DNA of 32,367 nt from a virus. The translations under genes were made by a program, and so were the position numbers. Position 1 is the first letter of the stretch; the number at the start of each line of letters is the position of its first letter. The stretch lies in IMG/VR virus record IMGVR_UViG_3300046724_000129, positions 1-32,367 of that record; one strand, 5' to 3'. Positions 12 through 31,204 of the stretch are shown here, piece after piece. The notes beneath the pieces are model-generated. The model was not told where the DNA came from and ran no database searches. It was given only the letters and a program-made list of their open reading frames with translations.

Positions 12-36
12 AGCCCGCATGAGTATGGGCTTTCTT
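12..36 (+). terminator. weak candidate rho-independent terminator
   Basis: On the plus strand AGCC at 12-15 can pair with GGCT at 28-31, and CAT at 18-20 with ATG at 25-27, with a two-base bulge and a GAGT loop. The stem is followed by TTTCTT. It could stop transcription entering from the left edge. The stem is short and the T-tract interrupted, so this is only a candidate. The rest of 1-93 shows nothing else. Confidence 0.25.
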
Positions 37-93
37 ACATCTACCACAGTCTCCAGACTGCGCGAACATTTTCTCTCCAACTCTTGATCCTTG

Positions 94-222
94 TCAAGCC
101 CCCCTGCGAATAAGAAAGAAACGGGCATACAGATATTTATTCGGATACCTACGCAGGATAGGGTGTTCGACCATTTCCTTCAAGGAAACCTTGAACCATC
201 TCGCCTTCTTCGCCCGTTTCAC
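94..222 (-). CDS. small basic protein, 42 aa, unknown function
   Basis: A short reading frame that starts with GTG at 222. The start overlaps the TGA stop of the HNH-like gene as GTGA, and AGGACGGAA lies just upstream as a plausible ribosome binding site. The product is strongly basic at both ends, with Lys/Arg clusters in the first eight residues and the last ten, and a central stretch rich in Tyr, Pro and Asn. It would be the last gene of the leftward early operon. I do not recognise the family. The stop-start coupling is the main reason to believe it is real; nucleic-acid binding would fit the charge but is a guess. Confidence 0.5.
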   Translation of the reverse strand: MKRAKKARWFKVSLKEMVEHPILRRYPNKYLYARFFLIRRGA

Positions 223-16558: not shown

Positions 16559-17946
16559 GTGAGCGCAATCACCGTAGAGTTCCCGGCAACACCGTTTGAT
16601 CCGGTAATGCCACCTCCACCACCACCCGTACCGCCGGCTCCACCAGCAACCGAGAAGGTGAACGTCGGTGCCGTAGTTGTCGTCAGGAAGAAGAGATAAC
16701 CTCCACCCCCTCCACCGCCACCGCCACAGCCCACTATGCCAGGGCTTCCTCCATTGCCTCCTGTAGCGGTAATGGAACCTGTGCCTGAATTCAGGAAGGC
16801 ACAAATGCCGACATAGCCGCCACCAGATCCGCCACCACCACCTTTGTTCGATACGTTGTCTCCACCCGCGCCGCCACCACCAGCACCACCGTTGTATCGC
16901 AATCCGGCCGAGGTGAATCCCTGTTCAAGTCCAACCATCGAGACAAGAACGAGGTTAATTGGTGTCTCCACACCGCCATTGTTCACCGCAGGAGGAGTAA
17001 TATTTCCACCGACCGCTCCACCTGTTCCACTCCCGTTCCCGCCTCTTCCTCCAGTACCGCCCAGCGCATGGCTGTTGTTTGAACCAAAGCTACCGCCGCC
17101 AATGTTTCCAGCACCACCAGAACCAGACTGACCGCAGTAGAAGTTGAAGGGAACGCTTGCTCCAGCAGTTCCTGTGCTGCTTCCATTTGGACCGTTGCTG
17201 TGAATGAGCGCAGTCGAAGGAACGGTAAGAGTTCCGTTCGCCCATATGCCGAAATTGTTGGCATACACGGTGATGCCGGCTGACAGCGTGATGTTCGTCC
17301 CGAAGATGTTGCGCGTCAGGGTATACGTACTTCCTGCCAGAGAGGCAAAGGCGAAGGTGTTCGTTCCATTGAACGCAATCGTCCCATCCGAACCCGTTCC
17401 GAAGAGCCAGATCAGGGGCGAGAAGATGGTTCGATAGGTCACCCCGAGTGCCGTTGCAGAATTGGCCGACAGGGCAAATCCATCCTGACCCACGGGGATG
17501 CGGTTGTCTGCAGTATCGAAACCCCAGATGTCACCCTTCGTCGTCAGGGGCGAGGTCGTTCCCCCGCCCGTCGCGCTCACCGTGATCGGACCCAGCGCAC
17601 CCCCGTCGACAATGGTCACGTTCGTGCCGGCGGTCAGAAGACGGGATTGCGTCAGGGCCGGTTCGGTCACAGCAGTCACATAGGATGCGTTGATGGGAGC
17701 TCCACCCCCGCCGCCCCCGGTCGACGCGATCGTGATGTCCCCACCGGGACCGCCATCCGTAATCGTGACATTCGCCCCCGCCTTCAGCCGTCTTGAGGCG
17801 ACAAGTCCCGATTCCTTGATCGCGGTGACGAAACTCCAGTCGGGCAGTCGGAGAAGGTCAGCCCGCAGCTTGCCGAGCCAGATCACTACCTGCTCGAGTT
17901 TGGACTTCGGGTCCATTTCCGGCGGGAGGGCAGAGAAGAAACTCAT
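16555..17946 (-). CDS. glycine-rich tail adhesin-like protein, copy 1 (463 aa)
   Basis: ATG at 17946 overlaps the stop of the adaptor-fusion gene (ATGA); an upstream in-frame start at 17961 is less likely. The architecture equals that of the following gene: D-W-S-F-V-T-A-I-K-E-S-G-L-V-A-S-R, two A-G-x-N-V-T-I modules, T-T-K-G-D-I-W-G-F-D-T, a domain with R-N-I-F-G-T-N-I-T-L, and a C-terminal half full of Gly runs. The N-terminal halves of the pair are nearly the same while the Gly-rich halves differ in detail, as expected when the exposed ends diverge. A distal tail adhesin or fibre component is the likely role. Confidence 0.55.
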   Translation of the reverse strand: MSFFSALPPEMDPKSKLEQVVIWLGKLRADLLRLPDWSFVTAIKESGLVASRRLKAGANVTITDGGPGGDITIASTGGGGGGAPINASYVTAVTEPALTQSRLLTAGTNVTIVDGGALGPITVSATGGGTTSPLTTKGDIWGFDTADNRIPVGQDGFALSANSATALGVTYRTIFSPLIWLFGTGSDGTIAFNGTNTFAFASLAGSTYTLTRNIFGTNITLSAGITVYANNFGIWANGTLTVPSTALIHSNGPNGSSTGTAGASVPFNFYCGQSGSGGAGNIGGGSFGSNNSHALGGTGGRGGNGSGTGGAVGGNITPPAVNNGGVETPINLVLVSMVGLEQGFTSAGLRYNGGAGGGGAGGDNVSNKGGGGGSGGGYVGICAFLNSGTGSITATGGNGGSPGIVGCGGGGGGGGGYLFFLTTTTAPTFTFSVAGGAGGTGGGGGGITGSNGVAGNSTVIALT

Positions 17947-20051
17947 GTCCATCCGCCCCACGGGTTATCGAGTCTCTGATCCGGCAGGAACTGGAATCCT
18001 GCGTTCTCCACGCTCCACTCCTGAACGTCCTTGTGGTACTTGGATGCTTGTTTGGCAAGGCGCCGGAGCCGTGACTGCGGGACCTCGTACTGGTCCGCCA
18101 TCATCACCGCAAGACCGTACCGTAGAGCGAGATACCACTCGCACGGGAAGTCGAATTCATCCGTTCCCGCGGTCATGACGTAGATGGGCCGCTGGAAGTT
18201 GCAGACGACGATGTCCGTCGAGTTCATCGCATTAGAATAGACGTACAGGGTTCCATGACCGGTCGACGGCGAGGTGGTCGACCCGGAGTTGATCCCGGAG
18301 TCGTAGTAGATGGCGGTCGCGGTGTCTTGATACCCCTTCTGCACGATCTGCGCGTACTCGGAACGCGACAGGATCTTCACATCTCGGTCGTAGCCGGAGA
18401 TGCTGTGGACGTAGGATCCTGCCAGCATGAGCCGCAGCGGCCGGACACTCGTCACGTTCGCCCCTGATGGACCGATGGTGTAGGCGTTCTGACCCGCGAC
18501 CAGGGGAATCGGAAGCCATTGATACGTCCATAGCTGGAGCCCGCGGGATTGCCAGTTGGTGATCAGGGTGTTCAGGTCTTCTGCACCCGTGGCAATCTGG
18601 TTCGCGCTCATGACCTGATCGTCCTGCAGCACATGGAGGAGTCGCAGGGAGGATGCGATCATCGAATCCCGCGTGATGGTGATGCAGGAAGTGCCGGAGG
18701 AGCCGAATGGAACCGGCGGATACAGGGTCGGATAGGCCGAGGTCGAGGTGTTCTGAACCTGCCAAACGTGCCTCGGCGCCGCGACGAAAGAGACTTTTCC
18801 CGGAGGATTGGGTTGCTGGACGAACTTCTGCGCCGCATAGGCCGAGGCATCCGTCGGTGCGGGCTGGAAGATGTATCGCTGCGGCGGCAGGGAGGACTGC
18901 TTGCCGGCCGGAAGCGGAGTCGAGACAAACGGGTGCAGCGTCTGGTACGCCGCAGTCGAGGTATCGGCCGGCTGGAAGAAGTACTTCGCCGGAGAAACAT
19001 AGACCTGTTCCCCCGGAGGAACCGGAGGAAGCGGGTGCGTGGTCTGGTACGCAGAGGTCGAAGTGTCTGCGGGCTGGAAGAAATACCGTGCCGGCGAGAC
19101 ATACACCTGCTCGCCCACCGGCATCTGGGTCGGCTGCAGCCAGAAGGGGAACGATTTCGAGGAGTCAGTCGGCTGGAACCAGACCTTCTGCGGTCCAACG
19201 TAGACCTGATCCCCGATCGGGAGCGAGGCTTCCGGTACGAGAACCTTTGCAGAGCCTGTGCTGGTGTCGTCAGGCTGGAAGAAGTACCGCGCGGGGCTAA
19301 CGTAGACCTGTTCGCCCACCGGAAAGACGACAGGAGCGGGCTGCGGCAGGACAAACGATGTATCCGCAGGTTGATACAGGAGTTTCTGCGGGCCGATATA
19401 GACCTGTTCGCCCGGAGGAAATGCCGTCGGCAGCAACGACAGCGGCAGGGCGAACGACGTATCGTCCGGTTGGAACCAGTACTTCTGCGGGCCTACATAG
19501 ACCTGATCACCAACCGGAAGATTGACTTCCGGGAGCAGAACCTTGGCCGACCCCGCACTCGTATCATCCGGCTGGAACCAGTACTTGACCGGAGCGAACA
19601 GCGGCTGATTGAAGATCGGCTTGGGCGGTACGACTGCCTTCAGGGAAAGCGACGTACCGCTCGAGGTATCCGGAAGGATGCGAACGGGCGCCGGAGAACT
19701 TTCTACCTGCCTCTTCCCGGACGGAAGGACCAGTTCAGGAATGAGGTTCTTCGGAGTGCTGCGTGAAGTCTCCGAGAAGAGCCGAGGTAATTGCAGCGGA
19801 TCCCAGAGCGGCGTCTTCCCGATCGGGAGCGTTACCTCACGCCGCAGAACTGTGGGAAGGCTCTGACTGGTATCTGCGTTGATGCGCAGCAGGGAGGGCG
19901 CAGATGCACATTGCGCCTCTCCCGGCGGCATCCCTGCTACAACGGCAAGGGTGGTCAGGAGAAGTGCCTGACCGACCCATGCAGAAACAGCGAGAACAGG
20001 GGGCTGTTCCCGCTTCGTTACAAAAAGAGGTCCCCGGAAGACGTTAGCCAT
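17943..20051 (-). CDS. tandem-repeat protein fused to a second gp4-like tail adaptor, 702 aa
   Basis: ATG at 20051 is preceded by GGAGG at four bases. Residues about 456-702 closely resemble the stand-alone adaptor of this phage: both share D-L/A-L-N-T-L-I-T-N-W-Q-S, G-L-Q-L-W-T-Y-Q-W-L, N-F-Q-R-P-I-Y-V-M and D-E-F-D-F-P. Residues about 30-455 are about ten or more units of 32-36 residues with the core P-V-G-E-Q-V-Y-V-S-P-A-R-Y-F-F-Q-P-x-D-T-S, degenerating toward the N-terminus. The hydrophobic stretch near residue 25-40 (G-Q-A-L-L-L-T-T-L) looks like the first repeat rather than a signal peptide. Adaptors of the gp4 type join portal to hub; what the repeats do is unknown. Confidence 0.65.
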   Translation of the reverse strand: MANVFRGPLFVTKREQPPVLAVSAWVGQALLLTTLAVVAGMPPGEAQCASAPSLLRINADTSQSLPTVLRREVTLPIGKTPLWDPLQLPRLFSETSRSTPKNLIPELVLPSGKRQVESSPAPVRILPDTSSGTSLSLKAVVPPKPIFNQPLFAPVKYWFQPDDTSAGSAKVLLPEVNLPVGDQVYVGPQKYWFQPDDTSFALPLSLLPTAFPPGEQVYIGPQKLLYQPADTSFVLPQPAPVVFPVGEQVYVSPARYFFQPDDTSTGSAKVLVPEASLPIGDQVYVGPQKVWFQPTDSSKSFPFWLQPTQMPVGEQVYVSPARYFFQPADTSTSAYQTTHPLPPVPPGEQVYVSPAKYFFQPADTSTAAYQTLHPFVSTPLPAGKQSSLPPQRYIFQPAPTDASAYAAQKFVQQPNPPGKVSFVAAPRHVWQVQNTSTSAYPTLYPPVPFGSSGTSCITITRDSMIASSLRLLHVLQDDQVMSANQIATGAEDLNTLITNWQSRGLQLWTYQWLPIPLVAGQNAYTIGPSGANVTSVRPLRLMLAGSYVHSISGYDRDVKILSRSEYAQIVQKGYQDTATAIYYDSGINSGSTTSPSTGHGTLYVYSNAMNSTDIVVCNFQRPIYVMTAGTDEFDFPCEWYLALRYGLAVMMADQYEVPQSRLRRLAKQASKYHKDVQEWSVENAGFQFLPDQRLDNPWGGWT
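18690..19960 (-). repeat. in-frame tandem repeats of about 96-108 bp within the adaptor-fusion gene
   Basis: The coding repeats give a period near 100 bp. Several units are very close, for example those encoding Q-V-Y-V-S-P-A-R-Y-F-F and Q-V-Y-V-G-P-Q-K-Y-W-F, while units at both ends are degenerate. Alternation of two unit types (G-S-A-K-V-L versus S-A-Y-Q-T) suggests that pairs of units were duplicated. Recombination between units could change the length of the protein. Confidence 0.7.
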
Positions 20052-20079
20052 CAGTCCTCCGGAGACAGACCACGATCAA

Positions 20080-20574
20080 TTACACCACTTCGTAAATGAT
20101 GTGGCCCGAGCTCTTCCCCGTACCCGTCTTGGACGAGAGCAGAACCTCGCCCGCATTCGCCGCGGTGCCGAACACGGTGATTTCCTCACCGTAACGGGCT
20201 TGCCACCGGCTGATGCCGCCGAAGGTGTTGCAGGACAGGGACAGCAGGTAGAGCGTTGCCGCCCGCTGCGCACCCGAAGTCGCTGCGGTGTTGCCCCAGT
20301 TGAAGATCGTGCCGGGGGCCGTCGACTGAACGTCCATGAGGGCGTTGTTGCCGACCGACAGGGCGCCCACCGACAGCGTCGAGGAGCGAGCGAGGATGAA
20401 CGTCGTCGGGGTCGATGCCGTGTCTTCGCCACCGATTTCGACTTCGTTGATCTTGCCCAGAACAGATGCGCCACCGCCACGCAGCGAACCGGGATAGGTC
20501 GCATTGGTGGCGGCAACTGTGTCGGCCAGAGCCGCAGCCGTGACCGTAGTCCAAGTTGCCGAGTAACGTGCCAT
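20080..20574 (-). CDS. probable virion protein, 164 aa
   Basis: ATG at 20574 follows AGGAG with six bases between. The protein is beta-rich with Ala, Thr, Ser and Gly: M-A-R-Y-S-A-T-W-T, K-I-N-E-V-E-I-G-G-E-D-T-A-S, F-I-L-A-R-S-S-T-L, I-F-N-W-G-N-T-A. This resembles small capsid- or tail-decorating proteins seen in phage structural operons. It is preceded by a Cys-rich small protein and followed, after 28 bases, by the adaptor-fusion gene. No enzyme motif. The structural assignment rests on composition and place. Confidence 0.45.
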   Translation of the reverse strand: MARYSATWTTVTAAALADTVAATNATYPGSLRGGGASVLGKINEVEIGGEDTASTPTTFILARSSTLSVGALSVGNNALMDVQSTAPGTIFNWGNTAATSGAQRAATLYLLSLSCNTFGGISRWQARYGEEITVFGTAANAGEVLLSSKTGTGKSSGHIIYEVV

Positions 20575-20588
20575 TTATTTCTCCTATT

Positions 20589-20912
20589 TCACGGCAGGAT
20601 TAATCCGGAGGTGGCTTGCCGCTCAACCTTCTCCAGTTCTTCTTCCACGAATTGCGCAAACGTCCTGCAGGAAGCACCCGCAACCATCTCTGCTGCGCAC
20701 TTGTCGCAGATGTGATGATTGCATCCCTTGCACTTGTAACGCTCCCGCGTCCTCTGCGGGTTCAGCACCACCACATACTGGCAATGCGAGCAGGTATACG
20801 TGTCGGCCTCGAAATGACGCATCGTTCCCGGCGGCAACTGATCCGCCGTCGCACGGTGATCGATCTCGAGATAGCCGAGTCCTCTTGGTTCTTTGTCCGA
20901 TTGGATGATCAT
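20589..20912 (-). CDS. zinc-ribbon protein in the late operon, 107 aa
   Basis: ATG at 20912 follows GAGGAAACC. After 38 residues with E-I-D-H-R-A-T-A-D-Q-L-P-P-G come C-S-H-C, then Y-K-C-K-G-C-N-H-H-I-C-D-K-C, giving a two-site Cys/His cluster that should bind zinc, and a helical Glu-rich C-terminus. Similar small proteins occur in phage structural operons, where their role is unknown; they may help assembly. Start, coupling and Cys spacing make it a real gene. Confidence 0.6.
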   Translation of the reverse strand: MIIQSDKEPRGLGYLEIDHRATADQLPPGTMRHFEADTYTCSHCQYVVVLNPQRTRERYKCKGCNHHICDKCAAEMVAGASCRTFAQFVEEELEKVERQATSGLILP

Positions 20913-20919
20913 GGTTTCC

Positions 20920-21063
20920 TCACAAGCATGATTGAGCCATCAGTACATCCGGAGCCTGATCTACATACTGCGCTCCGGGTATTTGTGTACCGGTCGAATT
21001 CGGAGGCGGTATCGGCTGATAGGCAATTCCTCCCGGTATTTGATAAAGAGTTGGAGCATCCAT
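20920..21063 (-). CDS. 47-aa Pro-rich small protein
   Basis: A short frame starting with ATG at 21063, which overlaps the preceding gene's TAA (TAATG), and ending seven bases before the next start. The peptide is uncharged, with Pro, Gln, Gly and Tyr (Y-Q-I-P-G-G-I-A-Y-Q-P-I-P-P-P), and ends in M-A-Q-S-C-L. It fills what would otherwise be the longest gap in this part of the operon, and is tightly coupled on the left. A small structural or linker peptide is plausible; function unknown. Confidence 0.5.
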   Translation of the reverse strand: MDAPTLYQIPGGIAYQPIPPPNSTGTQIPGAQYVDQAPDVLMAQSCL

Positions 21064-22340
21064 TAGGTCACCGTCATGATCGGATCAACGTATGCCGTGT
21101 AGCTTGCCTTCCCCAGCTTGACGCTCGCAATGAAGAATCCCTTGAGTTGAGGCGTGAAGGTGAGCGACATCTTTTGCTTGTTCGGATTCGCCATTCCTCC
21201 CGTAGCCCAGGTAGCACTCGAGGACGACAGGGTAGATCCGGCTGCGAGAGCATTAGGAGCAGAATCTATATAGGTGCCAAGAGGGTTCCCGCTGGCTCCG
21301 TAGTAGCTGAGTTCCAGCCATATTTCGTTGTCCTTGAGGCCCGTCGCATTGTCATGCAGGAATTCGACCGTAACCGTTTTCGATGCCCCGGTCGTGTCGT
21401 TCCAAATGACGAATTCTCCGGTCTGCAAGGCTCCGCTAGGGAATACCGTACTGGCAACCGATACCATCTTCCATGAGATTGCGGTAGTTCCGTCTGTTGC
21501 CCCGCCAGTACGAACAAACGTTGTCTCGTTGGTAATGTTTCCCCATTGCGTTTCACGGTGCAGGATGTAGTTCGTCCCGGACGAGTCACAGGCCATCAAC
21601 TGCACGATGTTCGGACTGCCGGTAACACCGGATGTGCCGGTGAGGTTTCCAGTCCACGATGTCGGCATCTTGCAGTTGCGCATCGTCAAGCGCATCCCCG
21701 TTACCGTCGCGCTGCTTATGTTCATCGTCGATGATGCATTCGACAAATCAACATCCTCAATCGTGCCGCCGATCGCCGTTGTGCCGAGCAAATCGGTCGG
21801 AGTCGTTCCGCCCGCCAAGATGCTGCCGCCAGTCCATCGCCATAACTGGTTGCCAGAAATAAATTGCCCAGTCGCTGCAAACTTTACGGTGCAATTCTGC
21901 CATGTGGAGGTGTTCGGTGTTATGGTCGCCGTCCCAGTACCGCTCAACTGGAATGAACAACTCTCCATCAGGCTCCCAGAGCCGCAAGTCAGTCCCGCTG
22001 CTGACGTTCTTGATGAGATGAACGTCACACCATAGACGTAGATGGCGACAGAACTGATTGTCAAGCCAGTTCCTGAACCAAAGGTTGCCGTTGCACCGGT
22101 TCCAATAGTCGACGGCGGGGCTCCGCTTGTTTTGTCAGCACAGATTACCCGTAGCGGTACGCTGAACCACGTAACCGTGAGCGAATCGGTTTCAGCGTGC
22201 ACGGTTGAAACGTAAATGTTGTCACCAGAAGCAAGAAGCCCTGATGTGGAAAGACCATCAAGTGATGTTGCCGCCTTCGCCCATGTGTCGAATGGGGAAG
22301 TGTTCGTTCCAGCGGTCGAGTCGACGTAATAGGCGGTCAT
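21063..22340 (-). CDS. beta-rich spike-like protein, 425 aa
   Basis: ATG at 22340 lies seven bases after the preceding stop without a strong ribosome site. The N-terminus M-T-A-Y-Y-V-D-S-T-A-G-T-N-T-S-P-F-D-T-W-A-K-A is the usual opening of proteins that fold as a right-handed beta-helix, in which D-S-x-x-G-x-N turns and W-A/K-T follow. The middle is Ser/Thr/Gly-rich beta strands; the last 150 residues look like a separate beta-sandwich (E-F-V-I-W-N-D, V-E-F-L-H-D, W-L-E-L-S-Y). No catalytic motif stands out. Tail spike or surface protein is likely, but the order next to proteases makes a secreted accessory function possible too. Confidence 0.5.
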   Translation of the reverse strand: MTAYYVDSTAGTNTSPFDTWAKAATSLDGLSTSGLLASGDNIYVSTVHAETDSLTVTWFSVPLRVICADKTSGAPPSTIGTGATATFGSGTGLTISSVAIYVYGVTFISSRTSAAGLTCGSGSLMESCSFQLSGTGTATITPNTSTWQNCTVKFAATGQFISGNQLWRWTGGSILAGGTTPTDLLGTTAIGGTIEDVDLSNASSTMNISSATVTGMRLTMRNCKMPTSWTGNLTGTSGVTGSPNIVQLMACDSSGTNYILHRETQWGNITNETTFVRTGGATDGTTAISWKMVSVASTVFPSGALQTGEFVIWNDTTGASKTVTVEFLHDNATGLKDNEIWLELSYYGASGNPLGTYIDSAPNALAAGSTLSSSSATWATGGMANPNKQKMSLTFTPQLKGFFIASVKLGKASYTAYVDPIMTVT

Positions 22341-22347
22341 TCGACGA

Positions 22348-23598
22348 TCACTTTACCGTCACGCTTCCATTACCGTTGTTGGTGAACGTCTTGTTGGTCC
22401 CATCCGTCGTCGTGTAGCTTTGACCTGTCGGAAGACGGGCGTAGTCAGTCGTGTCGCTGCCGCCATAGTTGCTGCCGAACGTTTCCTGCTTGTGGACCCG
22501 GATCTCGTTGCGCCAGTCACCCTGGAAGTCGACCATCCATTGCCCGCATTGAATTGCGTCCGGATAGGCCGTGATGGTGCGCAGGGTGGCACTCGCACAC
22601 GGCTTCGGCGTCAGCGCACCAAGAGCCACAAGATGAGGAGAGGCGAATCCGGTCAGCGTGAAGAAGTCCGAACCGCGCCCCATCTGGTCAACGTCACTCC
22701 CATACTCGACATAGTTGCCGTTGTACTTCGATGCGTTGTGCAGCATCCAGAGCGCATGGCCGATCTCATGGGCGTACAAGCCCGCGCCGTCCGGAACCGT
22801 TCCCCATACCGCAACGAATTCACCACCAGTTGATGCCTGGGACGACCAGCAGGTATACGGAGTCACCCCGACGACAACGTCCGGAACAGGTTTCCTGCCA
22901 CCGATTGCGGCATAGGCATCGGAATACATATTTTGCCAACCGCAACTAGTAGCCTTGCCGAGCTCCACCGCGGGAAGCACGGTGATGTTCAGCTTACGAA
23001 CACCGAACGTGGTCGTCAGATACCACGCCGCCACGCGATCCATGATCGGTTGCAGAGCAGCAGTCGTCACCTTCGGCAACGTCTGGTTGTATCCATCAAT
23101 CGAAGGCTGGCTCGCGCCGTCATACATCTGATAGCGCAGCGGGACCACGTACACCGTCGTCGTGATGACCGGCGCGGGCGGCGTCCCCGAAGGAGGAGGT
23201 GGCGGCGGGGGAGGAGGAGGTGGCGGCGGCGGCGGGGGTGGCGGCGGCGGGGGCGGTCCTACCGTCGGACAGGTCACCACCGTCTGCAGCCCTGTGACGT
23301 TGATCGTCGCGCAATGTCCGTCACCGAACTGAACGAAGCCCTGTCCACTCACGATGATGATTCGCGCCGCCCTGAAGGAAGTCGATGCCGCATAGCTAGA
23401 CCCGACCAGCGTGTACTGGAGGTAGGCGTAATTGCCCTGGGCATCGACTGCCCCATAGTTCTGGAAGAATTGCTGCGTGGTAGTGGTAACCCACCTTGCC
23501 CCTGCGCTCCCTTCGTACACCCCGTCAGGCTGCGACACCACCTGCCCAACGGCAGAGATGCAGAAGAACAGGGAAAAGACTGCGATGATCTTTTTCAT
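22348..23598 (-). CDS. exported M11 gametolysin-like metzincin protease, 416 aa
   Basis: ATG at 23598 overlaps the preceding TGA (ATGA) and follows GGAA by seven bases. A Sec signal peptide (K-K then A-V-F-S-L-F-F-C-I-S-A) covers about 1-20. Residues 20-110 form a small beta domain, then 22 consecutive prolines (115-136) and a catalytic domain. The zinc motif H277-E278-x-x-H281-x5-H287 (A-H-E-I-G-H-A-L-W-M-L-H) and a Met-turn at M306 (S-D-V-D-Q-M-G) identify a metzincin; Y-G-S-D-V-D-Q-M-G is the pattern of M11 gametolysins. The product would go to periplasm or be released at lysis. Such an enzyme in a phage late operon is unusual. Confidence 0.75.
   Translation of the reverse strand: MKKIIAVFSLFFCISAVGQVVSQPDGVYEGSAGARWVTTTTQQFFQNYGAVDAQGNYAYLQYTLVGSSYAASTSFRAARIIIVSGQGFVQFGDGHCATINVTGLQTVVTCPTVGPPPPPPPPPPPPPPPPPPPPPPSGTPPAPVITTTVYVVPLRYQMYDGASQPSIDGYNQTLPKVTTAALQPIMDRVAAWYLTTTFGVRKLNITVLPAVELGKATSCGWQNMYSDAYAAIGGRKPVPDVVVGVTPYTCWSSQASTGGEFVAVWGTVPDGAGLYAHEIGHALWMLHNASKYNGNYVEYGSDVDQMGRGSDFFTLTGFASPHLVALGALTPKPCASATLRTITAYPDAIQCGQWMVDFQGDWRNEIRVHKQETFGSNYGGSDTTDYARLPTGQSYTTTDGTNKTFTNNGNGSVTVK
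23188..23260. repeat. low-complexity polyproline tract, GGN/CCN repeats
   Basis: An uninterrupted run of 22 CCN codons on the minus strand (GGN on the plus strand) joins the N-terminal and catalytic domains of the M11-like protease. The tract is prone to slippage, and polyproline should form an extended rod-like linker. Confidence 0.7.
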
Positions 23599-24968
23599 TT
23601 GCACTTTCCGCTATTGCCGCGAGGCGTACATGGTTTCGACGCTACCCAATTGACTGTGACCTGTGCCGTACTGCTGGTCGTTCCGTTGCTCGCTGTCATC
23701 GCATACACCACAGGGCCTACCACCGAAGCCGTCGCCCTGCACGAACTGGTCGTACTCGAGCAGTTGGTCCAGACATAGGTCGTCGGACTACCGGCACAGG
23801 ATGCAGAGATCGTGATGGTCGTCCCGATAACAGGATTGGCCGGCGCTGACAGCGTGCATGACACAGGAGGCGGCGGCGGGGCCGTCGCACTTCTGAAGTT
23901 GGCAATCGCATAGGCGTTCTGGGTCAACGCCCGCACGTTGTCGGCCGAGGTCGTGTTCCCCATCGGATTCAACGGATTCCCATAGGACAGGAGCGGCGTG
24001 GAGAAATACTGCAGCCGCGTCCCGCCGCATTGGGTCGGATAGGCCATGACCGTGCGCCATCCGGAGCAATCAACCCAGCCGTGGTTGAACCCTGGGGTCG
24101 AATCCACGTACATATCGTGCCGCGCACCCATCAGGTGACCGAGTTCGTGCGGGAACGACAGGTTGCCCACCGCGCAGCCGCGGTTGATGACTGACCACGC
24201 GATGTTCGCATCAGGACCAATGCCGTAACTCATGCCGCAGTACCCGCCCGACTCCTCGACGTACATGGCAACGAGGTCGGCGTAGTGCGTGTTGCGCATC
24301 GATGCAACCGTAGGATCGGATGCAAGCCAATTAACGTCTGCCGTCTGGTCACCGAGCTCGTCGTGCGCAACCTGCTGTGACCAGACAAGGTTGATGCGAA
24401 ACGGAAGGCCGCTATTCAGATACACCTGATTGCTGACATCGATGGCATTCTGTATCTGCGAGCCGATCGCGGTCCCGGCCGCAAGAGCGGTCTGGTTCGT
24501 GTACACCACCATCACATCGATAACTGCCCCGGTATCGCCCTGTACGTCGGCCGGAGGACGCGCCGGAGCAACATGGTCGAGCGTGTCCTGCTTCGCATCC
24601 GGGAACCCCTTCGGATCCAGTTCCACCAGGGTCTGCTTGCCGTCCGCAGCGGTCCTGATCTCGTAGGCAGGTTCGTTCCCCTTGTTGCCGAGGTAGATGT
24701 ACCCGGAGATCACTCCGTTGACGCTGGTGAGGATCGCATGGCCGTTCGGGTAATCCTTGACCTTGCCGTGCCAAGTGAAGCTGCTCGCGTTGCGATGATC
24801 CACATGATGGACGATCAGCGTGAACGGCGGGATCGACAGTTTCGCAGTCGGACGGGTGATCGAGATCGAGATCGGCGTCGACTTCTTGATGCCGTGATTC
24901 TTCTCGTAGTTCTGCGCCCAACCAACCGTGCTGAATATCGATAGTGCGATGACGAGGAGGAATTTCAT
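23595..24968 (-). CDS. exported M72 peptidyl-Asp metalloprotease-like protein, 457 aa
   Basis: ATG at 24968 overlaps the adaptor's TGA (ATGA); an upstream in-frame ATG at 24980 is weaker. Residues 1-19 are a signal peptide cut after G-W-A-Q. Residues 20-145 look like a propeptide (G-Y-I-Y-L-G-N-K, Y-E-I-R-T-A-A-D-G-K). The catalytic domain starts near V-I-D-V-M-V-V-Y-T-N and has the C-G-M-S-Y block, H274-E-L-G-H278-x5-H284-D, W-R-T-V-M-A-Y (Met-turn M308) and N-P-M-G, all as in family M72 (endoproteinase Asp-N type). A short Pro linker (364-368) leads to a Cys-containing Ig-like domain (370-441). Most M72 enzymes are bacterial secreted proteases; a phage copy is unusual. Confidence 0.8.
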   Translation of the reverse strand: MKFLLVIALSIFSTVGWAQNYEKNHGIKKSTPISISITRPTAKLSIPPFTLIVHHVDHRNASSFTWHGKVKDYPNGHAILTSVNGVISGYIYLGNKGNEPAYEIRTAADGKQTLVELDPKGFPDAKQDTLDHVAPARPPADVQGDTGAVIDVMVVYTNQTALAAGTAIGSQIQNAIDVSNQVYLNSGLPFRINLVWSQQVAHDELGDQTADVNWLASDPTVASMRNTHYADLVAMYVEESGGYCGMSYGIGPDANIAWSVINRGCAVGNLSFPHELGHLMGARHDMYVDSTPGFNHGWVDCSGWRTVMAYPTQCGGTRLQYFSTPLLSYGNPLNPMGNTTSADNVRALTQNAYAIANFRSATAPPPPPVSCTLSAPANPVIGTTITISASCAGSPTTYVWTNCSSTTSSCRATASVVGPVVYAMTASNGTTSSTAQVTVNWVASKPCTPRGNSGKCK

Positions 24969-25735
24969 CTGGAGGGCCATCTTGATCCCATTCTGAAATC
25001 CGGCTGGAAACGGAACTTCGATTCCTCGACGCTCCAATCCTGCACTTTCTGGTGATGTTTCTCTGCCTGTTCGCGCACCCGTAACAGGCGCCCGTCAGGG
25101 ACTTCGTACTCGTCGGCAAGGATCTCCGCGAGTCCGTAGCGCAATGCAAGGAACCACTCCGCGGGGAAGTCGAACTCGTCCGTCGAGTTGTTCATCACGT
25201 AGATCGGCCGCTGGAAATTGCCGATGATCGTATGCGTCGTATCGGTCGGGTTGCAGTACAGGTAGAGCGTCCCGTACCCGACCGAAGGCGAGGTCACCAA
25301 ACCGGAGTCGATCCCCGGCTGGTAGTAGATCGAGTTGGTCGTACCCTGGGACTGCTTGTTGCCGAAGTTGGCGTAGTCCGTCCGGGAAAGCACGATCAGC
25401 GGCGTGTCCATCTGGATGCCGCCGACCGTGTTCCGGATGAAGCACCCGTCCTCCATCAGCTTCAGGGGACGGACGTTGGTCACATCAGCCGCGGACGGCC
25501 CGATGGTGTAGACGTACTTGTTGACCTGACAGGGAATCTCGAGCCATTGGTACGTCCACAACTGCAGACCATTCGACTGCCAGTTGGTGATGAGCGTGTT
25601 CAGGGCTTCCGATCCGTTGGTGATCTGGTTCACGGACGGAGTCTGTCCATCCTGCAGAACCCGGAGGGTCCGCATGGACGCCGCGATCAACTGGTCGCGG
25701 TTGAGGGTGAAGGATGCTTGCCCTGAACTTGCCAT
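24965..25735 (-). CDS. P22 gp4-like tail adaptor protein, 256 aa
   Basis: ATG at 25735 follows GAGG by five bases. The protein starts with helical residues of the gp4 type (L-N-R-D-Q-L-I-A-A-S-M-R-T-L-R-V-L, A-L-N-T-L-I-T-N-W-Q-S-N-G-L-Q-L-W-T-Y), then a beta domain (Y-T-I-G-P, D-V-T-N-V-R-P), and ends with helices (E-W-F-L-A-L-R-Y-G-L, D-W-S-V-E-E). In P22, gp4 binds below the portal, completes the head and holds the tail hub. A second, fused version is encoded at 17943-20051. The M72 protease gene starts on its stop codon. Confidence 0.75.
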   Translation of the reverse strand: MASSGQASFTLNRDQLIAASMRTLRVLQDGQTPSVNQITNGSEALNTLITNWQSNGLQLWTYQWLEIPCQVNKYVYTIGPSAADVTNVRPLKLMEDGCFIRNTVGGIQMDTPLIVLSRTDYANFGNKQSQGTTNSIYYQPGIDSGLVTSPSVGYGTLYLYCNPTDTTHTIIGNFQRPIYVMNNSTDEFDFPAEWFLALRYGLAEILADEYEVPDGRLLRVREQAEKHHQKVQDWSVEESKFRFQPDFRMGSRWPSR

Positions 25736-25743
25736 CTATGCCT

Positions 25744-26148
25744 CTATTGCTTGGACCAGTCGAACACCATGTTGCGACCCTTGGGCTCTTTGGGTGCCGG
25801 CGGCGGCAGAGCGGGGTCGTACTGGTACACCGTGACGACGACCGGCGTCCCGACCGGAGTTTCCATCTCGTTCGTGCCGGGACTGGGCGCACCGCGGGTG
25901 AAGTTCAGCGTCCCGGTCTGCTGACCGGTGACCGGGAACGGGTTCTTCGGACCTGTGGTGACGATCCACCGCGGGTATCCCGAATCGTGGTATTCCCCGA
26001 ACTGCAGCTTGACCACGTTGGAATCCGGCATCTTGAACGTCAGGACGACGACGGTGTCCTTCTGGTCGATCGGCGCAATGCCACCCTGCCCCGTGATGAA
26101 GCGTTCGTAGGTAACCGACGTATCGACTGCGATGTTGATCTTTGCCAT
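25744..26148 (-). CDS. small virion protein, 134 aa
   Basis: ATG at 26148 follows AGGAG by six bases. The product is a beta-rich 134-residue protein beginning M-A-K-I-N-I-A-V-D-T-S-V-T-Y and containing V-V-V-L-T-F-K-M-P-D-S, G-Y-P-R-W-I-V-T-T-G-P and V-V-V-T-V-Y-Q-Y-D-P, with a Pro-rich C-terminus (P-P-P-A-P-K-E-P-K). It is placed between the lysis genes and the tail adaptor. A minor structural or accessory virion protein is the likely role; no family recognised. Confidence 0.45.
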   Translation of the reverse strand: MAKINIAVDTSVTYERFITGQGGIAPIDQKDTVVVLTFKMPDSNVVKLQFGEYHDSGYPRWIVTTGPKNPFPVTGQQTGTLNFTRGAPSPGTNEMETPVGTPVVVTVYQYDPALPPPAPKEPKGRNMVFDWSKQ

Positions 26149-26149
26149 G

Positions 26150-26317
26150 TCAGGCTCCTTTGTGCTTGGCGATGACGGCCTCGATATCCGAGACAATCGT
26201 TGTGGCCCCGGTCTTCGCAAGCGCGAAGAGCGCGGACATCTGGTGCAACTTGATGACTCCAACGATGAGCAGTACCACGATGATGAACAGCAATCCTATG
26301 ATCAAATCTTCAGTCAC
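26150..26317 (-). CDS. 55-aa single-pass membrane protein of the lysis region
   Basis: GTG at 26317 overlaps the o-spanin stop as GTGA and follows GGAG by five bases. One hydrophobic helix at about residues 5-24 (L-I-I-G-L-L-F-I-I-V-V-L-L-I-V) is followed by an amphipathic segment with several Ala and Val, ending in K-H-K-G-A. It sits between the spanins and virion genes. A pinholin or anti-holin is possible, but one TM alone does not decide. Confidence 0.5.
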   Translation of the reverse strand: MTEDLIIGLLFIIVVLLIVGVIKLHQMSALFALAKTGATTIVSDIEAVIAKHKGA

Positions 26318-26604
26318 GTTCTCTCCTTCGGTTTGGCGCACCCTCGGAGGAGGGCATCCGCCTGTGCTGCATAATCCTCGAACTCATGGAGATCGAGTGC
26401 TGCCTGTGCTGCCTTCTGCAACGTGCCGTCGGCGGGCTTCATGTACGTGGACGGAACCTTGGGTATCTGGTCAACGGATACGCAGGGAACTGCCACCGGC
26501 ACTTTTACCACCGAGATCGGTGCTTGGCTGACTAGTGCCTGATCCGTAGCGCACCCTGTCGTTAGCAAGATCAGTAAGAAGCTTGTCCACCGCAGGGCAT
26601 CCAT
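26314..26604 (-). CDS. Rz1: Rz1-like outer-membrane spanin lipoprotein
   Basis: The 96-residue product starts at ATG 26604 after GGAACGGAA and has a lipoprotein signal: basic N-terminus, L-L-I-L-L then L-T-T-G-C lipobox with Cys 18. The mature part has several Pro and a helical C-terminus. The first 134 bases lie inside the i-spanin gene in another frame, exactly the Rz/Rz1 arrangement. Rz1 is anchored in the outer membrane and pairs with Rz to fuse the two membranes at the last step of lysis of Gram-negative cells. Confidence 0.8.
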   Translation of the reverse strand: MDALRWTSFLLILLTTGCATDQALVSQAPISVVKVPVAVPCVSVDQIPKVPSTYMKPADGTLQKAAQAALDLHEFEDYAAQADALLRGCAKPKERT

Positions 26605-26971
26605 TTTCCGTTCCCTTGCTATTCGCAATCGCAATCAGAGAGGATCTTGTTTCTGCCATGGCCTGTATTCTTTTCTGCGCAGCCTGGAGAGCCGCCTCCG
26701 AAGCTGCGACTCGCCGGTCAGATTCGCCTTTAATCTGATCAGTTGCATCGTTCTGCGCAGATAGTTGCTCTTTGAGCGTAGCCAGATCCCTCTGAAGTCC
26801 TTGGTTAGCACCAACTGCTGTCTCCGTTGCTTGCTGTGCCGCCTTCAGTTCCAACTTGAGCGGCGCCGTGAAGTGGTTGCCGATGGCCGTGTAGATCAGA
26901 CCGAGCAGGATCATCACCGCCACCGCGATGACCCCGTACACGATCAACTTCGCTGCGCTGAACCCGAACAT
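26471..26971 (-). CDS. Rz: Rz-like inner-membrane spanin
   Basis: ATG at 26971 directly follows the previous TGA. The 166-residue product has an N-terminal transmembrane helix (about 7-28, V-Y-G-V-I-A-V-A-V-M-I-L-L-G-L) and a long charged coiled coil from about 36 to 125 with many Gln, Ala and Glu, as expected for Rz. The C-terminal part is Gly/Ser-rich and encodes the Rz1 start in a different frame. It spans the periplasm from the inner membrane to meet Rz1. Confidence 0.8.
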   Translation of the reverse strand: MFGFSAAKLIVYGVIAVAVMILLGLIYTAIGNHFTAPLKLELKAAQQATETAVGANQGLQRDLATLKEQLSAQNDATDQIKGESDRRVAASEAALQAAQKRIQAMAETRSSLIAIANSKGTENGCPAVDKLLTDLANDRVRYGSGTSQPSTDLGGKSAGGSSLRIR

Positions 26972-27202
26972 TCATTGCTTCTGCTGTTTTGCCATCTCGG
27001 CTTGCTGCTGGATCCACGCCTCATACGGGAGCGCCTCGATGCCGGCAGACTGCATCTCCATCTGGTACTGCATATAGGCGTCCCGTGTCGACAGGGCCTT
27101 GGTGGTCGCACCCTTGTTCGCACGCATCTGCGGCTGCTGCTGCGCCTGGGGCGTCTGCTGCCCACCCTTGAACATCTGCATGATGCTGTCCAGCATTCCC
27201 AT
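26972..27202 (-). CDS. Gln-rich small protein of the lysis region, 76 aa
   Basis: ATG at 27202 is five bases after the preceding TAA and follows GAGGTAATC. The product has an amphipathic start (M-G-M-L-D-S-I-M-Q-M-F-K-G-G) and a Gln-rich middle with Q-Q-Q and Ala, then a helix with Tyr and Met, ending Q-Q-K-Q. Neither a transmembrane helix nor a signal peptide is seen. It lies between a holin candidate and the spanins. Function unknown. Confidence 0.45.
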   Translation of the reverse strand: MGMLDSIMQMFKGGQQTPQAQQQPQMRANKGATTKALSTRDAYMQYQMEMQSAGIEALPYEAWIQQQAEMAKQQKQ

Positions 27203-27204
27203 GA

Positions 27205-27420
27205 TTACCTCAGTCGAAACAGCGGACCATTCATAGTGACCCCGCCGAGCCCAAGCAAGAAGTTGACCAGGACGACGACGATCAGCAGGACGCCAAGCAC
27301 CACGATGATGGTATTGAACGGCTCCGGAACACGCGGGCCGATCTTGGTCCAACCCCACCACAGCACTCCAGCGATCAAGCCGAGAAAAATCAGTTCGATG
27401 ATCAGTTGCATGATATTCAT
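27205..27420 (-). CDS. holin candidate with two TM helices, 71 aa
   Basis: ATG at 27420 follows AGGAG by five bases. Two hydrophobic helices (about 5-24 and 36-58) flank a short loop K-I-G-P-R-V-P-E-P-F-N-T-I. A loop with P-E-P-F-x-T-I before a strongly hydrophobic second helix recalls Pam3-gp28-type putative holins. The placement near endolysin and spanins supports a role in membrane permeabilisation. Its C-terminus ends F-R-L-R. Confidence 0.6.
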   Translation of the reverse strand: MNIMQLIIELIFLGLIAGVLWWGWTKIGPRVPEPFNTIIVVLGVLLIVVVLVNFLLGLGGVTMNGPLFRLR

Positions 27421-27794
27421 GGGGACTCCTTAGTGGTTGTGACGGTAGCAGTTGCCACCGTCTTGTCCGGTCTTCCGATGTCCCTCGGAGGCCGTCTTGT
27501 TGCGGCCATGTAACCCGCCAATGCGCCAAGCAGCGCAGCAAAAGCGGTACAAACTGCACCGATCGCGGAGCCCGTCGGCCAGGGGTCGTAGACGCATGGA
27601 ACCTGCGCCCTGATCCCCTGACCTACGTCGGCGATCGTGTAGCACCGGAAATAGCTGATGGCGCTCATGATGCAGATAAAGGCGATCGAACACAGCACTC
27701 CAATGGCGACCCAAAGCACAACGATATAGGCGGCGTCTGCCATGCCGTCCACATCGCTGATTGCCTCGCGCAGCCAAGTGGAGCGCACCTTCAC
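27417..27794 (-). CDS. membrane protein of the lysis region, 125 aa
   Basis: GTG at 27794 overlaps the preceding stop as GTGA; an internal ATG at 27743 is an alternative start. Two or three hydrophobic segments are present: one at about 22-48 (A-Y-I-V-V-L-W-V-A-I-G-V-L-C-S-I) and one at about 80-97 (A-I-G-A-V-C-T-A-F-A-A-L-L-G-A-L-A-G-Y). A loop with two Cys connects them. Holin, antiholin or accessory; the neighbouring 71-residue protein is the better holin candidate. Confidence 0.5.
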   Translation of the reverse strand: MKVRSTWLREAISDVDGMADAAYIVVLWVAIGVLCSIAFICIMSAISYFRCYTIADVGQGIRAQVPCVYDPWPTGSAIGAVCTAFAALLGALAGYMAATRRPPRDIGRPDKTVATATVTTTKESP

Positions 27795-28072
27795 GGATTC
27801 GTGATGGTCTGGTTGAGGTTGGTCGCGGCTGCAGCGACGACATCATCCAGAGGCTTCGTGTCCGTCAGAACAACGCCGGCCGAGTTGGTCGCCGTGACCG
27901 TCGAGGTAAAGCCCGTACCCAGGGTGACTGCGGTGTAGACGCAGGACATTCCATCCGCGGCCGGTGCAGCCGTGTAGCCGCCCGATGCGACGTAGGAAAC
28001 GCCCGTGACGACGCCGTCGCCATCCGGTGCAATGTGGGAAGTGTTCGTTCCAGCGATTTGAACTGATGCCAT
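27791..28072 (-). CDS. small beta-rich virion-like protein, 93 aa
   Basis: Start chosen at ATG 28072 with GGAG seven bases upstream; the frame is open to 28171, where ATG overlaps the endolysin stop, so a 126-residue form with an odd Cys/His N-terminus is possible. The core is Ala/Thr/Gly/Val-rich and beta-like (G-V-S-Y-V-A-S-G-G-Y-T-A-A-P, T-V-T-A-T-N-S-A-G-V-V-L-T). It may be a small structural protein or an Ig-like decoration. Function unknown. Confidence 0.45.
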   Translation of the reverse strand: MASVQIAGTNTSHIAPDGDGVVTGVSYVASGGYTAAPAADGMSCVYTAVTLGTGFTSTVTATNSAGVVLTDTKPLDDVVAAAATNLNQTITNP

Positions 28073-28163
28073 GTGATGTCTCCGAATACGTTGGTGAAGA
28101 TGTCGTGCAGGATGCTTGCACCCGCACAGGTTGAGGATAGGCTCTACCAGGATGATGTATAGA

Positions 28164-28766
28164 TCACGCATTTATGAACGCAGACCTTGCTACCGCCAGC
28201 ATGGCTTCACGGTCTGCTTCTCCATTTAGCCCACCATTGATTTTCCGAGTCACTCCCCGGAAATCCCCTGCGTCGGCCAATTCATTGCAACCCATCGCTT
28301 GCCATATGTAACAGGACGCGAGGGCGCCATAGGTTGGGTCCAGCACAAGGTCGGGGTCAGCCTCGATGTTGACTCCGATCCCGCCACCGATCCGGCGATA
28401 CAGATTCCGTCCGGTAACCTGAATCGGTCCTCTCCCTCGAAACTCCCAGCCATCACCACTCGATTCGTCGCCATTTCCCATACGGTTCGCGTAGACACGG
28501 TTGGCAATTCTCTCAGGTTGGTGCGAATAAGTGGCAAATTCGTCCCCTGTGAAATGAGTCGGGAAGGTCTCCCGCAAACCCTTCTCCGAGTAATTCAGAT
28601 TCTCCTCGAGAGTCAGGAAACTGTTCGATTCGTGCGCAATCTGCGCGAGGAAGTACGCAATCCTCTCCTCGGTGTCGATCTCGTACAGGCTCATCGCGTT
28701 GTTGAGCGGCAGGAGCCAGTCGTCCGGGTTGTGACAGAGCAAACCGAGCTCGCGCAGCGTGATCAA
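28164..28766 (-). CDS. GH19-family endolysin, 200 aa
   Basis: TTG at 28766 overlaps the previous stop (TTGA), a weak but coupled start. The sequence has the GH19/chitinase-like lysozyme blocks: A-Q-I-A-H-E-S-N-S-F (Glu 46), L-E-E-N-L-N-Y-S (Glu 54/55), and G-D-G-W-E-F-R-G-R-G-P-I-Q-V-T-G-R at about 104-120, then an A-W/I-W segment and a C-terminal R-K-I-N-G-G. Such enzymes cleave peptidoglycan glycan strands. No signal peptide, so it needs a holin to cross the inner membrane. Confidence 0.85.
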   Translation of the reverse strand: MITLRELGLLCHNPDDWLLPLNNAMSLYEIDTEERIAYFLAQIAHESNSFLTLEENLNYSEKGLRETFPTHFTGDEFATYSHQPERIANRVYANRMGNGDESSGDGWEFRGRGPIQVTGRNLYRRIGGGIGVNIEADPDLVLDPTYGALASCYIWQAMGCNELADAGDFRGVTRKINGGLNGEADREAMLAVARSAFINA

Positions 28767-29050
28767 TTCTTTATCCCCTTGTATGCAGCATAGGCCACGA
28801 TCAGACCGGTCCCGATAGTGATCAGGTACTTGATCACGCTGGTGCCAAGCCTGCTGGCATTGAGAAGGTCGGTCAGTTGTGTCACGGCTGCTGTGTTCGC
28901 TGCGAGTTGTTGTGCGATGGTCGTCTGCTGCGCCCTTATCTCCATCATTTCCCTGTCTAGTCGGTCAAGATGCTCCTGAATGTGACCACGAAATTCTGCA
29001 TCCAGAGAACGCCTATCGGGGACAAGGTCCTCCTCCACTATCTTGTTCAC
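28763..29050 (-). CDS. coiled-coil protein with C-terminal TM, holin-like, 95 aa
   Basis: GTG at 29050 overlaps the tail fibre stop as GTGA. Residues about 20-65 form a charged coiled coil with [19 protein letters not shown] and N-T-A-A-V-T-Q; a single hydrophobic helix (about 73-90, [12 protein letters not shown]) and K-G-I-K-N end the protein. This plan is shared with XhlA/haemolysin-type lysis accessory proteins. It lies just upstream of the endolysin, so a lysis role is likely. Confidence 0.55.
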
Positions 29051-30927
29051 AGGTCGGCATCCACGGTGTAATGAAAAGCAATCGCCCCGCCCACGGTCGT
29101 CCCCGCATTCCCCGTGACCTGCGCCACCTGGATGCCGCGCTCGCTCGTCGTGGTCAGGGTCATGGCGGAAGTGTCAGCCGCGGCGGTCAGGTCTCTAGCC
29201 TGTGCGTTCGCTGCAGACGGGTTGTATGTGGTCGGAGTCGGGTTTGAGCCGACACGAAGCGGAATCTCGTATTCCTGCGCGAACCGGTTGGTGGTCGCCC
29301 CCGCGCTTGCAGCGATGAACACCAGAGACCCGGCCACCCCACCATTCTGGGCAGGCGTCGTCGAATACGGGAAGGTCTTCTGGTAGTACCGCTTGCAGCG
29401 GGCCAGTTCGTCCTCGAATTGAAGGTACGGGAACGCCGGGGTCGATACCCCTTCGGCAAGGACGACCTCGGTGCAGTACGCGGACAGGGCGGCAGGATTG
29501 TTCCCTATCGGAAGCTGAATCTCGATCTCGATCCCGTTGGAGCAATCGCCCATAGAAATTCCAGCAGAGACTCCCTGTGTTCCTGTCACAAGCCCTGTAG
29601 GGACCACAATCGACCCGGAGGTGCTGATCACGGTCACGCCGGCAAAGTTGTCCTGCGCGGTGGCCTTGCGCACGACGATGACCGCGTTCTGGCTCGAGCC
29701 GCTGTTCTGCGCAAGCAAGCAACTGACCGACACGGTCGCATTCTTGTAGCGAACGGCGTCCCGTGATTCGATCCTGGTGCGGAATGAAATCTGCGACGTA
29801 CCGGTTGCGGCCAGAGCCGTGCCGCTCAAGTAGTAGCCGGTGCGACCAACCGTGCCCCCTGTTCCCTGCGTGCCGCTTCCGGAAACCGCAGAGCCGGACG
29901 AGAACCACATGGTCCACTTGTCGATCACGTACTGGGCCGCGGTCGAGAGAGCCACCGTCGCCCCGCGCTGGTTTACCACCATCCCGCCATTGATGACGGC
30001 GTTGTACGGAGTGTTGAGCGAGGTACTGGCGGTGATCCCAAGCATTGCCGAGACTTGCCCGACCGTCAGGTCCTGCGGCGCCGCGGAGCCACCCGTGTTG
30101 TTGCCCTTGATCGTGTTCCCCGCCATGTTCGCCATCTTGGCGTTGGTCACGGCAGAGTTGGCGATGGTCGAGGCAAGACTGCCTACGCCGTTCGTCACAT
30201 CGCCCGTGTGCGCGGGTTCGTAAATGACCCATGCTGCACCCGTGTCCCGGTAGAGGACCGCGGTGTCGGTGGCGAGGTAGTACCGGTTGAGCGTCCCGAA
30301 GGCGGGCTTCGCTGCATCCAGGCCGGTCAGGAGATTCGCCACCCCGCCCGCGGTGGTCAAAGCCCCGATCATGGTCGCGGTCTGCGCGGGCGTGAGTTGC
30401 GCTACCGCTCCCGGCGCCGTGGCGCCAAGAACGCCGGCCGCAGCCATTGGCGTGAGGCTCGTCGTCAGGACATTGGCCGCATTTGCCTGTGTGATCCCAT
30501 TCCCGGCCGCGATACGGCTCGAGTTGGCAAGCGTACCTGTCTCGTTGTTGATCGTGACATACGTCGCCGCCGCCGGAGCCGTACCGGAGCCAATGGAGTC
30601 GACAATCCCCTGCGCGGTCAGACGGAGCTCAACCCGATCTCCCGGCGCCCACGCGACTCCCGTCGTCCCTTCCTGCGCCCGCGTGATGGTCATCGCCCCC
30701 GAGCCGGTGTAGAGCGTGACCTTGACGATCTCGCGCGACTGCGGCGGGTTGATGCCGTTGGCGTAGCTGTACTGGTCGACCAGGGTCGCGTAGAAGTACG
30801 TCGGATTCGAGACCGACGGGAAATTCTGCGAGAACGGGGCGAGCGCCACCGACATCGTGGTCTGCACCGACGACATCGAGGCCGTGAGCGTTCCGGCTAC
30901 TGCATTGGCGAACTGGACATTAGCCAA
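29047..30927 (-). CDS. tail fibre protein, 626 aa
   Basis: TTG at 30927 follows GGAG by six bases and overlaps the previous gene's stop. The N-terminal 110 residues ([18 protein letters not shown]) are typical of phage fibre base domains. A long Ala/Thr/Gly-rich shaft with Q-L-T-P-A-Q-T and [12 protein letters not shown] follows, and the C-terminal 230 residues form a beta domain ending near [12 protein letters not shown] (about 510-520), a motif of receptor-binding fibre ends. Host recognition is the expected role. Confidence 0.75.
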
Positions 30928-31204
30928 CCATGTCTCCGTCTAGTGTGGTCGACCCGAGCATCCCCGGATACTTGCTGGGGAACGGGTCAACGAAGATGGG
31001 CGGCGGATCCGGACGCGACCACGGCACACCGGGATCGTCCTTGATGGGGCGAATGAGGTCCTGCGGATGCCGGGGCTCCCAGCACCGCTTGCAGACCATC
31101 AGACCGTCCCATTGCTTCCTAAGCTGGAAAGACTTGAACTTCTCTCCGCATTGGTCGCAGACGACGTTCCAATTGCCCGCCGAGAAGTAATCGGCGCGGC
31201 CCAT
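30920..31204 (-). CDS. conserved phage zinc-ribbon protein, 94 aa
   Basis: ATG at 31204 lies two bases after the previous TGA. The protein reads [44 protein letters not shown], then a Pro/Asp-rich tail. The C-x2-C...C-x2-C ribbon with W-E-P-R-H-P-Q-D is a well-known conserved phage protein of the structural module, with no established function. It lies directly before the tail fibre. Confidence 0.75.

Follow-up and report, generated by a model that had tools for sequence, protein, structure and literature searches.

Bacteriophages are known for depolymerases that cut sugars and for peptidoglycan hydrolases; exported protein-cutting enzymes have hardly been described in them. In one review of the barrier enzymes of tailed phages, the main text contains no words starting with "protease" or "metallo" (PMC6116005). 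The closest described phage system is that of a Listeria prophage, whose metzincin Mtz is secreted and acts through the lipoprotein Tim, with mtz-tim raising sensitivity to phage lysis as well as virion release (PMC8235301). Among bacterial enzymes, Mep72 (PA2783) of Pseudomonas aeruginosa exits the cell by type II secretion and selectively affects defined surface or secreted proteins, e.g. FliD, PcrV and ExoS (PMC4334185).

Here we describe two genes, A and B, in a 32,367-nt stretch of viral DNA (IMG/VR record IMGVR_UViG_3300046724_000129; hereafter the window), for which an original prediction had proposed two exported metzincins of different families encoded back to back in a phage late operon. 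The predicted placement of two adjacent genes at 22348-24968 is right, and their assignment to different metzincin families is supported, for A by matches to Mep72/M72 profiles and for B by its active-site residues and an M11-like profile.

Locus organization and translational coupling

Gene A starts on the stop codon of an adaptor-like gene and gene B on the stop codon of gene A, each by an ATGA overlap (Table 1), just as had been described; between B and gene C lies a 7-nt gap without overlap. The name "tail adaptor" given to the first gene of this chain stands in part: tblastn relatives of its product in several podophages carry that annotation, whereas the protein belongs to PHROG 12985, of unknown function, and matches Pfam SU10_adaptor below the cut-off. 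With the adaptor gene and C as the neighbours of A and B, there is no adjacent lipoprotein or TIMP-like partner, and a scan limited to sigma-70-like sites found no such promoter for A-B within 19000-31000.

The adaptor gene has a paralogue (66% nucleotide identity, 723 nt), fused at the C-terminus of a 702-aa protein (17943-20051) whose N-terminal half is an array of QVYVGPQKYWFQPDDTS-like repeats. Elsewhere in the window, two neighbouring fibre-like genes (15836-16492 and 17230-17880) form a direct duplication (68% over 663 nt), the second ending in a Gly-rich tail, and a 107-aa protein (20589-20912) bears CxxC zinc-ribbon motifs that resemble half a RING/IBR finger below the Pfam cut-off.

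Table 1. Features of the A-B locus, parts of the two predicted proteins, and leader-bearing genes near relatives of gene C. Nucleotide positions refer to the window unless another contig is named.
Feature	Position	Strand	Description
Gene A	24968..23595	minus	457 aa; predicted exported Mep72/M72-type metzincin precursor
Gene B	23598..22348	minus	416 aa; predicted exported, poly-proline-linked, M11-like metzincin
ATGA overlap	24965..24968	minus	adaptor stop / gene A start, read directly in the sequence (...ccagATGAaattc)
ATGA overlap	23595..23598	minus	gene A stop / gene B start, read directly in the sequence (...gcaaATGAaaaag)
Tail/head-tail adaptor-like protein	24965..25735	minus	256 aa; gene A coupled to its stop
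Gene C	21063..22340	minus	425-aa late protein without signal peptide
Gene D	25744..26148	minus	~134 aa, no assigned function; common to the second phage (~60%)
Endolysin	28164-28766		lysis gene, directly upstream of D-adaptor-A-B
Rz-like	26471-26971		lysis gene, as above
Rz1-like lipoprotein	26314-26634		lysis gene, as above
A, signal peptide			MKFLLVIALSIFSTVGWA, predicted cut before Q
A, N-terminal region	residues ~20-145		propeptide-like
A, catalytic domain	residues 149-363		Mep72/M72-reprolysin-like
A, zinc motif	residues 274-285		HELGHLMGARHD
A, Met-turn	Met308		
A, hinge			PPPPP, before the C-terminal domain
A, C-terminal domain	residues 371-457		Cys-rich, Ig-like
B, signal peptide			MKKIIAVFSLFFCISAVG, predicted cut before Q
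B, N-terminal domain	residues 20-113		no assigned family
B, linker			poly-proline, ~22 Pro
B, metzincin domain	H277 E278 H281 H287, Met306		M11-like
B, C-terminal tail			beta-type
Leader-bearing gene near a C relative	L245 9483-12065		Kelch-repeat protein
Leader-bearing genes near a C relative	L250 4525-6999, 12470-12943, 12940-14607		

Family and ancestry of gene A

The proposed M72 type of gene A is well supported by profile comparison. Its zinc motif HExxHxxGxxHD and Met-turn VMAY (VMAYP) are intact, with the zinc ligands, Glu and Met invariant between this phage and a second one described below. Against Pfam the protein matches Reprolysin_5 at 8e-14 (52.8 bits; cut-off 27) and Reprolysin_3 at 4e-9 (37.4 bits; cut-off 22.4), while the NCBIfam Mep72 profile (NF052434) matches at 2e-32 (112.6 bits) over positions 1-236 of 573, the catalytic part only. 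The equivalog cut-off of NF052434, set at 645 bits for the full length including C-terminal carbohydrate-binding domains, is missed by far, so that A is a relative of Mep72 rather than Mep72 itself. Furthermore, a profile combining A with its bacterial relatives finds solved catalytic domains of ADAMTS-5 at 2e-6; the AlphaFold model of A was poor (pLDDT 36), with too few sequences.

Bacterial relatives align to A from residue ~26-60 through 360 or further, covering the signal-to-catalytic stretch, and the segment between signal peptide and catalytic domain reads as a propeptide; this layout of signal, propeptide-like and catalytic parts is that of secreted bacterial proteases. A narrow search of bacterial genomes yielded no close relatives of A and a wider one at least 456 relatives, and the nearest sequence, at 43% across residues 26-409, is a protein from a Betaproteobacteria MAG. 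In a catalytic-domain tree of 79 bacterial and two phage sequences, the phage pair forms a single long-stemmed clade (100/100) inside a small, mainly proteobacterial group (97/97), with the MAG protein as its sister at weaker support (86/46). Judged by this position, A seems to derive from a secreted bacterial protease that was acquired once, long ago.

Family of gene B

Gene B carries the motifs HEIGHALWMLH and DVDQMG, and its three zinc His, the Glu and the Met-turn D304-M306-G307 are invariant in both phages; the Gly of HExxHxxGxxH is replaced by W, and by Y in the second phage's copy. These motifs speak for the M11 type originally proposed, as does the ranking by an M11-like profile, whereas Pfam M11 (PF05548) gave no match to B by hmmscan at E <=1 or record-wide at E <=10, and likewise none in control genomes. 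In the curated libraries all metzincin matches were sub-threshold, both for B (Astacin, 0.027) and for the second phage's B (Reprolysin_4, 0.014). The M11-like profile was built from three viral proteins (L143, L155 and L156, the last of which matches PF05548 at 2.4e-9) and scored B of the two phages at 1e-7 and 3e-8, a lead of 10 bits over every other metzincin in the set, in a test that is partly circular because the trio had been retrieved by a pattern built from B's own motifs. B ranked first in this set of >5,600 sequences, made up of 5,540 decoy ORFs plus the proteins predicted for the two phages; hhalign agrees on the M11-likeness of B (87%, against 37% with the A family), and the F..PH...LG.L segment shared by B and the trio lies outside the retrieval pattern. 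B thus likely resembles M11 more than the other tested families, its membership of M11 being unproven. The AlphaFold model of B, from 3 sequences only, was of low confidence (pLDDT 44), and a Foldseek search with it returned only chance matches; a search of 369 genomes of one bacterial class, run without a positive control, found no relatives of B.

Export signals

A simple n/h/c-region filter, requiring a positive start, a hydrophobic core and a cleavage site, was applied to every protein of >=100 aa predicted from the 47.8-kb version of the phage and let through only A and B, in line with the Sec signal peptides proposed for both. The two leaders differ in sequence between the phages, keeping the positive start, the hydrophobic core and an A-Q or G-Q end. 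Also invariant between the phages are all cysteines (10/10 in A, 6/6 in mature B), whose conservation in even counts fits disulphides formed outside the cytoplasm. Sec export of A and B is strongly indicated by these predicted features.

Recurrence in a second phage

Apart from 2 bases, the window is part of IMG/VR record 3300046663_000168 (47.8 kb), to which a third record, 3300046533_000316, is equal along its whole length except 1 base. An assembly chimera with bacterial DNA is ruled out by the presence of the same DNA in these three records together with the composition of A+B, which is average for the phage.

A further record, 3300046517_000307, is a different, complete siphovirus-like phage (46.6 kb, 127-bp terminal repeat) with its own copies of A (74% identity), B (76%) and C (75%); beyond these, protein comparison shows in common only D, an early gene at 45% identity and a second early gene as a weak match. 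Its gene order is portal - fibre-like - A - 145-aa protein - C - MuF - B - prohead protease, in which the start of B overlaps the MuF stop as TTGA, the MuF protein (1188 aa) has its MuF domain at the end, and the fibre-like protein matches PF23140 at 2.6e-5, just under the cut-off. Capsid genes here enclose A and B, and the likely lysis genes lie ~20 kb or more away. Given the coupling to the adaptor in one phage and the same genes inside the capsid operon of an unrelated, complete one, late synthesis of A and B with the virion proteins, as originally suggested, is strongly indicated. Rough dN/dS values between the phages, at saturated synonymous sites, are 0.083 for A, 0.057 for B and 0.075 for C and point to strong purifying selection. 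A role in head maturation can be set aside, as both proteins bear signal peptides and the second phage encodes a separate prohead protease.

A betaproteobacterial host is weakly suggested by phages of Alcaligenes, Rhodoferax and EBPR, which have relatives of several of the virion proteins, and by relatives of A in Betaproteobacteria. In an early gene of the window (3890-4054), two stretches of 36 and 42 nt are 97-100% identical to the otherwise unrelated phage G002. At L002 11090-14656, a MuF head protein of unusual architecture is fused behind several hundred residues of AFAGSGAFAP-like repeats.

Neighbourhood of gene C

Relatives of C turn up in five further viral contigs and in one bacterial region resembling a prophage, where they lie next to head or fibre genes and no metzincins are present. 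Some of their neighbours bear Sec-type leaders, among them the Kelch-repeat protein on L245, an 824-aa protein and a beta-helix protein (L250). From this small sample of five viral contigs and one prophage-like region, we tentatively raise the idea of an exchangeable slot in the virion operon, beside head-fibre genes and C, for large Sec-exported proteins that would act outside the cell before or at lysis: here two cooperating proteases of different families, elsewhere Kelch propeller or beta-helix proteins. We regard such a slot as possible, on the doubtful side; if real, its products would be the secreted equivalent of tail-spike depolymerases.

Discussion

The presence of A and B in the virion operon of this phage, and among the capsid genes of a second, suggests that, late in infection, some phages produce proteases for secretion. 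That the same pair is kept under strong selection in the late operons of two unrelated phages would mean that secreted proteolysis pays at this stage. For the enzymatic activity, outer-membrane route, substrates and benefit of the pair we infer the following, to which we give about an even chance: late-made, Sec-exported A and B cut host-surface or biofilm proteins and thereby aid the exit or spread of progeny. Both would be synthesised alongside the virion proteins and then exported through Sec; by analogy with Mep72, pro-A would mature in the periplasm and leave by host type II secretion if present, or else at lysis, while B would enter the periplasm and stay there until lysis releases it. 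Outside the cell the two might cleave host surface proteins, pili or flagella, or biofilm matrix, substrates proposed by analogy, so that debris and neighbouring cells would trap or inactivate fewer progeny and new hosts would come within reach. A and B would then be protein-directed counterparts of the polysaccharide depolymerases. It counts against this proposal that both studied secreted metzincins taken as models are encoded next to an inhibitor or partner (BamI, Tim), and none is seen beside A or B.

Perhaps the pair instead cuts envelope proteins in the periplasm or at the surface, speeding lysis and release in the manner of Mtz. The lysis genes directly upstream of D-adaptor-A-B in the window would fit such a helper, as would the increased phage-lysis sensitivity and virion release conferred by mtz-tim in Listeria (PMC8235301). 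However, the second phage keeps its likely lysis genes far from A and B, with capsid genes around them, and no Tim-like partner is seen near either gene; we find a lysis or envelope helper somewhat unlikely.

Rather less probable is superinfection exclusion or receptor clearing, in which the proteases would strip infected cells, debris and neighbouring cells of their receptor proteins (pili, porins, flagella). As a rule, genes for exclusion are active early or during lysogeny, and nothing here indicates expression of A and B in lysogeny; export and late timing, by contrast, would suit receptor clearing, as would the action of Mep72 on defined proteins such as FliD, PcrV and ExoS (PMC4334185). 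Short of substrates, this reading is hard to separate from the cleavage of surface or biofilm proteins that we favour.

The original prediction had left open release at lysis, export during late infection and carriage on the virion, and of these export or release is preferred. Enzymes that sit on the head or tail and act during entry would agree with the position of A and B among virion genes in two phages, near adaptor, fibre, MuF and C. Yet signal peptides would take both proteins out of the cytoplasm, the site of virion assembly, which makes their incorporation distinctly unlikely; the conserved even Cys counts, fitting disulphides outside the cytoplasm, and the bacterial-type propeptide region of A also argue against it. 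That the genes are passing cargo or an artefact without a phage role, a view open to A through its derivation from a bacterial family, is hardly credible in light of the three records, the second, unrelated and complete phage, strong purifying selection, the 100/100 long-stemmed phage clade and phage-typical composition. With cleavage of surface or biofilm proteins as the preferred reading, A and B offer a concrete pair for testing biofilm escape, lysis or receptor clearing.

Comparison with known systems

Gene A shares with Mep72 and M72 the catalytic domain, the signal peptide and the propeptide-like region; it differs in having an Ig-like Cys-rich tail instead of tandem carbohydrate-binding domains, in the lack of an adjacent bamI and in its place in a phage virion operon. 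The likeness of B to M11 gametolysin (PF05548) lies in the HExGHxL...H zinc site, the DxMG Met-turn and the F..PH...LG.L segment, and its differences in the failure to match PF05548, the W/Y where the zinc motif has Gly as its eighth residue, the poly-proline linker and the N-terminal domain of no assigned family. Like A and B, Listeria Mtz is a phage-encoded secreted metzincin (PMC8235301); unlike them, mtz-tim has a Gram-positive host, CI/Cro-type control, a TIMP-like lipoprotein partner, Tim, and one protease. With no TIMP-like lipoprotein adjacent, A and B do not match a system of the mtz-tim type.

Among INPHARED phages, tblastn gave no credible match to A or B and none to C, and in IMG/VR close relatives of A and B were found in the present records only. 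At least 120 viral stretches in IMG/VR contain the bare motif HExGHxxGxxHD, mostly in small, matrixin-like proteins; judged by a crude filter, about a third of these small metzincins carry a hydrophobic leader at the N-terminus, and some contigs hold two. One 240-kb viral contig carries a tandem pair of small lipoprotein-like metzincins (L045 5938-6517), and several other large contigs have two. In contrast to A and B, the small matrixin-like proteins measure ~200 aa and are without propeptide or accessory domains, and their relation to B is undetectable and to A little. The view that M72 and M11 enzymes are known mainly from cellular organisms holds insofar as A has cellular relatives; the novelty of exported phage metzincins was overstated in view of these viral stretches and Mtz. 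Exported phage metzincins are therefore already known as a kind, from the motif-bearing viral stretches and from Listeria Mtz (PMC8235301); new, as far as our searches reached, are this particular pair, its families and its place in a late operon.
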